Below are positions 4,518 to 18,827 of a stretch of 37,500 bases of DNA, one piece after another. The notes beneath the pieces are model-generated. The model made no database searches, was not told the origin of the DNA, and saw only the letters and a program-made list of their open reading frames with translations. How positions within the stretch are numbered: position 1 is the stretch's first letter; each line of letters begins with the position of its first letter. Where the stretch lies: positions 1-37,500 of the forward strand of contig JAFIGE010000028.1 of the NCBI GenBank assembly GCA_020831585.1, written 5' to 3'. Position numbers and translations under genes: made by a program. The stretch comes from Opitutales bacterium. Its GTDB lineage: Bacteria; Verrucomicrobiota; Verrucomicrobiia; Opitutales; Oceanipulchritudinaceae.

Positions 4518-5306
4518 TCAACCGTTGCGAAGAGCGAGGATGTCTTCGCGGGAACGCATTTGCTGGAGAGCATCGAGCGTGGCGAAAACCATCGCGGCGG
4601 GATTGTTGGAGCGCAAACTTTTCGTGAGCACGTCTTTCACACCAGCGGCCTCAAGGACAGCACGCACGCCCCCACCGGCAATGACACCGGTTCCGGGCGT
4701 GGCCGGACGAAGAAGGATCTTCCCGCCATCGTGCTCACCGAGAGCTTCATGGGGAACGGTGTTGTTCTTCAACTTCACTGGCTGCATATTCTTGCGGGCC
4801 TGCTCGGTACCCTTGCGGATGCACTCGGGAACTTCCTTGGCCTTGCCGTAACCGACGCCAACATTGCCTTCGCGGTCGCCCACGACAACGAGGGCGGAAA
4901 AGCTGAAACGGCGACCACCGGCCACGACCTTGGCGCACCGGTTGATGTGCACCACCTTTTCGAAGAGGCCGTCATCCTCTTCCTCGGGCTGGTTTTGGCG
5001 ATCACCGCGACGACCACCGCGGCCACCGGGTCCACCGCGGCCACCGGGTCCACCCCGGCCACCGGGACCGCGGCCACGGCCTTGATGGCCCTGACGCGGC
5101 GTTTCGATGGGACGATCAATCTTGCCCACCACAGCGCTGGAACGCTCGCGTTTTTCGGGAGCGGCACCCACGATGTCACCGGTTTCCTCGGCAACAGTTT
5201 CGGTGGGTTCAGGCGCGGGTGCTTCCGGTGTTTGATTCACCGGGGCCTCGGGAGCAGGGGCATCCGTCGGGGGGACAGACTCGTTTTGTTTGTTTTCGTC
5301 GGACAT
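4518..5306 (-). CDS. rpsE: 30S ribosomal protein S5 with RGG-rich N-terminal extension
   Basis: S5 contributes to decoding fidelity and to the mRNA entry site of the small subunit. The conserved core begins near residue 114 ([21 protein letters not shown], with the dsRBD-like fold and [11 protein letters not shown]) and runs to the C-terminus. Ahead of it lie about 113 extra residues absent from E. coli S5 (about 166 aa). Residues 1-50 are acidic and rich in Pro/Ala, 71-105 form an RGG/GGRGGPG tract, and 106-113 are acidic. I chose the ATG at 5306 (MSDENKQ), 12 bases after the rplR stop. A TTG at 5318 is in frame but would add only four residues. The extension is in frame, with no stop or frameshift, so it should be translated. 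Confidence 0.95.
5014..5067. repeat. Three tandem 18-bp units inside rpsE
   Basis: Two identical 18-base copies and a third with three mismatches encode successive PGGRGG blocks in the S5 extension. The array reads through in frame, so copy-number change by slippage would lengthen or shorten the RGG tract by six residues without a frameshift. Confidence 0.85.
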
Positions 5307-5318
5307 GGGGGGAGGCAA

Positions 5319-10015: not shown

Positions 10016-10363
10016 TTAGTTGGAGGAGGCGGCACCCTCGGCGAGGATGATGCGCAAGTGGCTCGTGCGCTTTTTGAAGGGGTGGGCGGAACCGCGGGCG
10101 ACCGGCTTGAAGCGCTTGAACGCTGGACCTTCTTCAACCAGCGCGCTCTTGATGACGAGGTTGTCGGAGGCGAGGTTGTGGTTGTTCTCGGCGTTGGCGA
10201 TGGCGCTCTGCAGCGTCTTGCGCAGCAGGCGGGCGGACTTGCGCGGAATGAAGGCCAGCAGCTCGAGGGCTTCGTTGGCCGGGCGGCCTTGTATCGAGCG
10301 CGCCACTTCACGCGCCTTCTTCGGCGAGATCCGCGTAAACTTTGAAAGGGAGGTCACTTCCAT
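10016..10363 (-). CDS. rplV: 50S ribosomal protein L22
   Basis: L22 extends a beta hairpin into the nascent-peptide tunnel and contributes to macrolide response in other bacteria. The 115-residue protein carries FTRISPKKAREVARSIQGRPA at its N-terminus, the AFIPRKSARLLRKTLQSAIANAENN block, and a C-terminal FKKRTSHLRIILAEG. It is preceded not by rpsS, as in nearly all bacteria, but by the small secreted-protein gene ending 12 bases upstream. Confidence 0.97.
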   Translation of the reverse strand: MEVTSLSKFTRISPKKAREVARSIQGRPANEALELLAFIPRKSARLLRKTLQSAIANAENNHNLASDNLVIKSALVEEGPAFKRFKPVARGSAHPFKKRTSHLRIILAEGAASSN

Positions 10364-10375
10364 GGTGAAGAAATT

Positions 10376-10717
10376 TTAATTGAGTCGAAATGTTTGCAGG
10401 CGCACGAGGTCGCCCGGTTGGATGGATTGCCCGGCGGGGAGATCGAGGATGAGTCCAGCGGTTTTCGCGGTGCCCACATCAGCAATGACGAGGACGGCGA
10501 TCACCTCGCCGTCACGCCGCACTTCGCAGCGCATCCCCTGCCGAAACCCCTGATCGAATCCGCCCGCCAAAACAACGATGTCGGCCGCATCGGTCGCGCG
10601 CACTTCGGCCACGAGGGCTTCTCCCGTGGGGAAGAGGCTCTGGGCCGATGCGCCCGCCGCGAGCACGCTCAGGAGCATGCCGCCTAGGGCCATCAAAGTT
10701 GTGCGGGAAAATTCCAT
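10376..10717 (-). CDS. Small exported protein encoded between rpsS and rplV
   Basis: This 113-residue protein is not ribosomal. From the ATG at 10717 it begins MEFSRTTLMALGG, then a hydrophobic run ending AAGASA, which is a convincing Sec signal peptide with cleavage near residue 25. The mature 88 residues are beta-rich. The pattern VVLAGGFDQGFRQGMRCEVRRDGEVIAVLVI, then GLILDL and a terminal PGDLVRL, recalls the small SH3-like barrel seen at the C-terminus of FlgT-type and related envelope proteins. That resemblance is by eye only. It lies 16 bases after rpsS and 12 before rplV on the same strand, so it should share the ribosomal transcript. The frame is open further upstream to 10789, but that would overlap rpsS. 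No Shine-Dalgarno is evident. Function unknown. Confidence 0.75.
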   Translation of the reverse strand: MEFSRTTLMALGGMLLSVLAAGASAQSLFPTGEALVAEVRATDAADIVVLAGGFDQGFRQGMRCEVRRDGEVIAVLVIADVGTAKTAGLILDLPAGQSIQPGDLVRLQTFRLN

Positions 10718-10733
10718 CGGGACGGCAACGAAA

Positions 10734-11003
10734 TCAGCGCTTCGTGTGCGGTTGGTGGCCCTTGAACTGACGGGTCGGGGCGAACTCACCGAGGCGGTGG
10801 CCGACCATGTTCTCCGTCACGTGAACGGGCATAAAGCCCTTGCCGTTGTGCACCTCGAAATTCAAACCAACGAATTCCGGGGTGATTTGGGAGCGGCGGG
10901 ACCACGTCTTGATCGGCTTGCGATCATCGGTAGCCTGTGCCTTGTCGACCCGCTTCCAGAGACCGGGATCAACGAAAAAACCTTTTTTGAGCGAACGTGC
11001 CAT
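10734..11003 (-). CDS. rpsS: 30S ribosomal protein S19
   Basis: S19 forms a complex with S13 in the 30S head. The 89-residue protein starts [19 protein letters not shown] and contains [24 protein letters not shown] and [22 protein letters not shown], both invariant blocks of the family. It lies 27 bases after rplB. The following gene is an unrelated exported protein rather than rplV. Confidence 0.97.
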
Positions 11004-17772: not shown

Positions 17773-18771
17773 TCAACCCGCACGTGTGCTCGCGGCAAAG
17801 AGATCCTCGCCCTCAAAAACACCCGCCAGGGCAGGCTCCCTGGACCGCTTGCTCTCTTCACCGCGCCGTTTGCCGCCCCACTCGGCCACGAATGCTTTTG
17901 TCCCGATCACCGCCCCCTGGGTCATGTAGCGCAAGCGGGAACGCAGCCTTTGTGCGGTGCTTAAATGGCCGCCCTCCGCTTTCACCGCCGCCGCTTCCTC
18001 CGGTGCGAGTGTGCGACCCTTGCGCGGATCCGCGCCGGCAATATACAAATACCGGCGGTAGCCCGCCGCCGTGACCTCCGGCGAGTCCCCCCGGTTCTCC
18101 GCAATGCGCCACCAGAGCCCAAAGCTCTTCAATCGTCCCGAACCGACCGCCTCCCCATATCCGCTGAACCGGTAGTCTTTCGGGTCGTCCACGATCCCCG
18201 CCCGCACCGGGTTCAGGTCAATATACGCTGCCACTGTCCGCACCGCCACCCGCGTGTTCTCCACCAGCACGCTCCGAAAGCGCCCTTCCCAGAGCGTGCC
18301 CACGCGGTCATACTTGCGGTTAAACAAAATCGAATACCGCTGCTTGAGGATCTTCATGAACATCGGCAGCGACGCCATCCGCGCCATCAGCAAACCCCGC
18401 ATGGCTGCCCGCACCTCGCCCCCGGCCCTCAGTGCGGCCTCAATCCGCGCCATCGACAGCGGCTGTCCCTTCCGCTCCTTCCCGTAGAGCAGCCGCGCCC
18501 GCTCCAGGAGGGCTTCGTCGCTCAACTCCCCCGGCGTCCCCGGAACTTCGAGGAGCAGGTGAAAGTGGTTATCGAGCAGCGCATACGTGATCACCTCCAC
18601 ACCGCAAAACCCCGCCACCCGCGTCAGCAGCCCCCGAAAGGCCTCCTTCTCCACGTCCGTGAAGAGGAACTCGCGACCGCACACCCGGCTCACCACATGG
18701 AAAACCGCATCAACCCCCTTGCGCCCGGCCCGGGGCATTCGGCGACTCTTCGCTGGAATCAAATTCTTCAT
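17773..18771 (-). CDS. REP-associated tyrosine transposase (RAYT-like), copy 1
   Basis: This 332-residue protein belongs to the Y1/HUH transposase group related to IS200/IS605 TnpA. The metal-binding HUH motif is His69-Phe70-His71 (DNHFHLLLEV). The probable nucleophile is Tyr183 in AAYIDLNPVRAGIV, preceded by GTLWEGRFRS, a run typical of RAYT proteins. The C-terminal part (YMTQGAVIGTKAFV) also fits that subfamily. Known RAYTs act on short REP palindromes and are usually single, vertically inherited genes without terminal repeats; I see none of the flanking ends of an IS200 element here. I chose the ATG at 18771 (MKNLIPAKSRRM) because it matches the paralogue at 31632-32624. The longer frame to 18807 is less likely. 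All key residues are intact, so it could be active. Confidence 0.88.
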   Translation of the reverse strand: MKNLIPAKSRRMPRAGRKGVDAVFHVVSRVCGREFLFTDVEKEAFRGLLTRVAGFCGVEVITYALLDNHFHLLLEVPGTPGELSDEALLERARLLYGKERKGQPLSMARIEAALRAGGEVRAAMRGLLMARMASLPMFMKILKQRYSILFNRKYDRVGTLWEGRFRSVLVENTRVAVRTVAAYIDLNPVRAGIVDDPKDYRFSGYGEAVGSGRLKSFGLWWRIAENRGDSPEVTAAGYRRYLYIAGADPRKGRTLAPEEAAAVKAEGGHLSTAQRLRSRLRYMTQGAVIGTKAFVAEWGGKRRGEESKRSREPALAGVFEGEDLFAASTRAG

Positions 18772-18805
18772 CGCACCCCATTCCACACGATTCCTCGCAA
18801 ATTCC

Positions 18806-18827
18806 AAGTTTTAAATTGCCGGTAGCC
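18806..18827. repeat. AT-rich element shared upstream of RAYT copy 1
   Basis: The plus-strand text around TTTTAAATTGCCGGTAGCC resembles an element at 32662-32681 upstream of RAYT copy 2, and the complement of 23482-23503 between mpl and tadA. The shared core is an A/T run followed by (C)CGG(T)TAG. The match was seen by eye and is imperfect. Confidence 0.3.

Follow-up and report, generated by a model that had tools for sequence, protein, structure and literature searches.

A gene for an exported barrel protein held directly upstream of rplV in Verrucomicrobiota

A small exported protein encoded between rpsS and rplV

The window (the whole 37,500-nt stretch analysed, from an Opitutales bacterium) carries a standard ribosomal-protein cluster on its minus strand, and within this cluster a 113-codon gene lies between rpsS and rplV (Table 1). 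The gene starts with an ATG at 10717, is separated from rpsS by 16 nt and from rplV by 12 nt, and shares the strand of both neighbours; no internal promoter or terminator beyond chance was found within it. The product begins with MEFSRTTLMALGGMLLSVLAAGASA|QSLF..., which reads by inspection as a good Sec signal peptide; approximately 88 residues come after it. AlphaFold2 applied to an alignment of 21 orthologs predicted a barrel with a mean pLDDT of 88 overall and of about 96 across the barrel itself. Frame reading and the predicted barrel thus bear out the earlier note, made from the sequence alone, which had described a same-strand frame of this length and spacing with a Sec signal peptide and a small beta domain.

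Table 1 Features of the locus in window coordinates
Feature	Position	Strand	Evidence
Short-form gene, 113-aa exported single-barrel protein	10376..10717	-	ATG frame; 21 syntenic orthologs; dN/dS 0.11-0.18 between close orthologs
Sec signal peptide (residues 1-25; probably cleaved at ASA|Q)	10643..10717	-	Sequence; N-terminal hydrophobic segment shared by 59 of the 60 homologs at the locus
Predicted beta-barrel domain, residues 33-107, six strands	10397..10621	-	AlphaFold2 pLDDT 94-98 per block; FlgT-C / F1-ATPase barrel / MreC fold
rpsS, upstream neighbour	10734..11003	-
rplV, downstream neighbour; partner kept when the operon splits	10016..10363	-

Two other features of the region were observed in passing. 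The rpsE frame (4518-5318, minus strand) encodes a 266-aa S5 protein whose N-terminus is extended by a long stretch full of GGRGG/RGG repeats, and beside the ribosomal cluster a 344-aa frame (17773-18807, minus strand) has by eye the look of a REP-associated (RAYT-type) transposase.

Evidence for a genuine gene

Length by itself is weak proof of a 113-codon gene, because this GC-rich genome contains many longer spurious antisense frames, and most genomes of the same family lack the frame; both observations would fit a chance open frame or an annotation artefact. We regard that explanation as practically negligible, since it is refuted by orthologs in the same slot, purifying selection, a confident predicted fold and phylum-wide synteny. 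A sequence search of 55 relatives gave matches in 20, one of which sits away from rpsS-rplV, and direct reading of the interval, with two cases added by synteny, placed orthologs between the two ribosomal genes in 21 of the 55. The distance from rpsS to rplV is 342-524 nt in these holders versus mostly 3-122 nt in relatives without the gene, with orthologs starting 1-34 nt past the rpsS stop and ending 3-46 nt ahead of rplV. Aligned, the 21 sequences share conserved glycines and a GFRxGM...ALI...GD pattern; the last barrel strand is conserved and the C-terminal tails vary. In close ortholog pairs with unsaturated dS, dN/dS (Nei-Gojobori) was 0.11-0.18, a low ratio of the kind that the earlier note had named as support for a real gene. 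The frame is therefore a genuine gene, and its product a small barrel protein that is exported. Absence from close relatives, proposed in the same note as a refutation, proved a poor test: 12 of 16 same-family genomes, other than the window's plus g3, lack the gene, and yet it is real.

A longer form at the same junction across the phylum

When 384 genomes of the class were searched with a profile, 322 had matches, a count that takes in paralogs. Outside the window's order, the regions around the best matches in the class all contained a 215-290-aa protein between rpsS and rplV, consisting of a signal peptide, a coiled coil and then the C-terminal barrel of the short form. Across the class and other classes of the phylum this longer version is mostly 160-320 aa, with a signal peptide or N-terminal anchor ahead of the coiled coil and barrel. 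For a phylum-wide sample, genomes were chosen via RpsS and their rpsS regions were fetched; in other families, 13 genomes had a homolog at the same place (129-321 aa), 16 junctions lacked the gene, and in many genomes rplV does not follow rpsS. Among 119 loci with both rpsS and rplV, 60 carried the gene, 55 did not and 4 had a wider gap without a recognized frame, frequencies that are biased because some genomes were fetched on account of hits. Even so, the expectation that rpsS and rplV are contiguous in almost all bacteria fails in this phylum, and homologs occupy the junction in several classes of Verrucomicrobiota. We recognize an rplV-linked family of exported proteins, each having a signal peptide or anchor and a C-terminal barrel and encoded directly upstream of rplV.

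A single-protein scan identified three named Opitutaceae loci with the gene in this position, in Geminisphaera colitermitum TAV2 and two Opitutaceae metagenome-assembled genomes, from which the window's order is judged to be Opitutales. The long form also occurs in a genus (g72) whose genome G149 encodes a GH20 enzyme scoring 841 bits to PDB 7cbn, which we take to be an Akkermansia muciniphila enzyme; the genus is probably Akkermansia.

The same genomes encode paralogs elsewhere that share the anchor, coiled-coil and barrel plan and often form tandem pairs; such pairs were seen in class members L129-L147 (for example, G209 C1 3330079-3331085 and G145 C2 71308-72389). The phylum thus has a wider group of envelope proteins of this kind, one of which is fixed at rplV. 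We found no clear case of an rplV-linked ortholog at another site, matches elsewhere being weaker and paralog-like.

Descent and repeated loss

A species tree built from RplB, RpsS, RplV and RpsC segments of the 119 loci separated the window's order from the rest and required 19 changes in presence and 2 between short and long forms. Long forms (29) occurred only outside the order, and short forms (30) inside it together with one outlier. The gene tree of the barrel grouped sequences largely by family, with short and long forms apart save for a few exceptions, and is therefore consistent with descent and loss. Within the window's family the gene is kept only in the window's genus and one other (g3). 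It has been lost many times within the order, including from most of the window's own family, and is dispensable. The patchiness in that family could reflect either several losses or a single horizontal regain, and grouping the five sequences of families f1 and f9 as one was not rejected (p-AU 0.43). Overall, the results point to mainly vertical inheritance of a gene that predates the divergence of the phylum's classes, with the short Opitutales form as a trimmed version of the ancestral long one. What the earlier note took for an unexpected exported gene at this spot is instead a long-standing feature of the phylum that has been lost repeatedly.

Retention next to rplV in split operons

The S10 operon has one of the best-conserved gene orders in bacteria. 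Several of the phylum's families have this operon split at rpsS|rplV (L148-L156, L164-L169, L175-L179, L187, L188 and others), and one split genome read directly has a terminator-like sequence after rpsS. In ten split-operon genomes we located rplV elsewhere, and in 8 of these 10 a coiled-coil and barrel homolog lies directly upstream of it. The linkage is therefore to rplV: the operon broke at the gene's own junction, with the gene remaining on the rplV side. Such retention is the strongest evidence for more than chance linkage.

It also weighs against the idea that an envelope gene simply rides the strong constitutive S10 transcript, its position having no regulatory meaning and persisting as ribosomal operons seldom break. 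Repeated loss without visible compensation and codon usage unlike that of ribosomal-protein genes would suit such a passenger, but synteny held across classes and the lack of a clear ortholog at any other place, together with the split operons, would not, and we judge this explanation to have perhaps one chance in a few.

Fold and family searches

No curated family fitting the window protein was found in Pfam, NCBIfam, PHROG or PADLOC, so no function can be transferred; a PDB sequence search found no relatives and a literature search found no paper describing the gene. Structural comparison used the predicted models. For the short form, FlgT (3w1e) was the top Foldseek match (E 1.1e-3), rotary-ATPase subunits and MreC ranked lower, and the model aligned to the F1-ATPase barrel with a VIA-align Z of 11.1 (1.7 A over 70 residues). 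With the long-form model, FlgT chains took ranks 1 and 2 (VIA Z 11.2 and 11.1, 75-77 residues, 2.0-2.1 A; Foldseek E 1.2e-4 and 2.3e-4). The likeness to the C-terminal domain of FlgT that had been noted by eye thus holds for the fold, as judged on predicted models, but not for sequence membership in FlgT_C (PF16538): the window protein matches no Pfam family, and the window's genome has no FlgT_C match at E<=1. Among 16 long forms, 6 gave weak FlgT_C matches (best E 5e-4, which is not established to pass the family cut-off), and 5 long forms weakly matched the NCBIfam MreC model (best 7.7e-6).

FlgT being the closest fold, and a component of the Vibrio H ring (PMC7693769), these weak FlgT_C matches would be expected if the protein belonged to a ring in the periplasm at an outer-membrane machine, either a secretin or a flagellum, as would the very weak profile matches to PDB entries of TsaP or LysM-domain proteins. 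Such a role is improbable, because FliG is missing from most holders among the 55 relatives and from the window's genome (98.5% complete), in which FliG_C, the one marker family used here for a flagellar H ring, was not found. Across the 51 relatives with known state, 20 had the gene only, 1 had both, 11 had neither and 19 had FliG only (Fisher p 2e-5). The apparent mutual exclusion disappeared within family f14 (p 1.0) and in phylogenetically independent pairs, and was dropped.

We also rejected the window protein as the MreC of its genome, which has a separate MreC elsewhere (G000 C120); the window protein has a single barrel and no coiled coil. MreC was found in 50 of the 55 relatives and showed no association with the gene, being present irrespective of it.

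Position upstream of rplV and possible regulation

With its gene ending 12 nt short of rplV, at a conserved location, the exported protein might act as a SecM-like secretion monitor in cis, with export of the nascent chain governing translation of rplV. The C-terminus is nevertheless the last strand of a conserved folded barrel, followed by variable tails with no conserved arrest-like motif, and the 160-320-aa long forms are atypical of such monitors. RNA structure at the rplV start likewise showed no overall signal or excess in holders (mean z 0.00 across 60 loci) versus non-holders (0.06). We consider this mechanism very unlikely.

In family f14 (Opitutaceae), loci with and without the barrel gene contain a conserved RNA element just ahead of the rplV start (AAAGGGYAGGG-hairpin-CTRTCGCC-hairpin-GGAATC; for example L111:3316-3371, and in L208, L210-L213, L216, L056, L061, L242, L243 and others). 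The element has covarying pairs (C-G/T-A, A-T to G-C), and the sequence of its two hairpins changes. A search against Rfam 15 at E<=1 gave no relevant match, and the element is a candidate ribosomal-protein leader.

A proposed link between ribosome synthesis and the envelope

The account we lean towards, by a modest margin of belief, is that of an old rplV-linked secreted gene, co-transcribed with ribosomal proteins, whose product serves the envelope as a scaffold or adaptor in the periplasm. The ancestral protein would have comprised a signal peptide or N-terminal anchor, a coiled coil and a C-terminal barrel of the FlgT_C/MreC type, encoded directly upstream of rplV; in Opitutales the coiled coil would have been lost, leaving signal peptide and barrel. 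Judging from its position, the gene is probably transcribed with its ribosomal neighbours, such that its mRNA would scale with ribosome synthesis and growth. The architecture suggests that the coiled coil may oligomerize and the barrel may dock on a periplasmic partner, in a manner comparable to MreC or to FlgT-C within a ring.

Translation would be set below that of the ribosomal neighbours. The codon usage score of the gene (-0.089) resembles those of ordinary genes (-0.24 to 0.035) and falls outside the range spanned by the window's 22 ribosomal-cluster genes (0.01 to 0.14), and synthesis at ribosomal-protein level is therefore unlikely. The proposal in the earlier note that the gene ties envelope capacity to ribosome synthesis may hold, but codon usage argues against translation at the ribosomal-protein level. 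A bolder version, which we put forward tentatively and as less probable than the general account, is an envelope scaffold hard-wired to ribosome production, with its dosage on the ribosome growth law, leading the rplV half-operon after the split and having the barrel alone as its working part.

The persistence of an exported, non-ribosomal gene at one junction throughout a phylum, and its staying with rplV, speaks strongly at the genomic level for a selected link between translation capacity and envelope building, and suggests an old connection between ribosome making and envelope building that has so far been unexplored. With the long form likely in Akkermansia and a transposon library (TraDIS) published for Verrucomicrobium spinosum (PMC12283558), the gene is experimentally accessible now.

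Comparison with known systems

Like the C-terminal domain of FlgT (PF16538; 3w1e, 8z5n), the barrel of the rplV-linked family forms the C-terminal part of an exported protein of the periplasm. Unlike FlgT, the protein lacks the other FlgT domains, its short form has no Pfam match and its ancestral form would have had a coiled coil; the setting differs too, no FliG having been found alongside it in the window's genome. With MreC (PF04085; 2j5u, 6zm0, 7eft) the family shares an N-terminal membrane segment, a coiled coil and a periplasmic barrel fold, but MreC has two barrels where the rplV-linked protein is predicted to have one, and the window protein also appears to lack the coiled coil. The N-terminal barrel of the F1/V1-ATPase alpha and beta subunits has the same topology as the short-form barrel, but those subunits are cytoplasmic and work within the ATPase, so that the resemblance is one of fold only.

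The nearest parallel in gene arrangement is secY in the spc ribosomal operon, a universal and essential envelope and export gene inside a ribosomal-protein operon. The rplV-linked gene is likewise an envelope or export gene within such an operon but, unlike secY, is bound to one lineage, encodes a secreted product and has often been lost.
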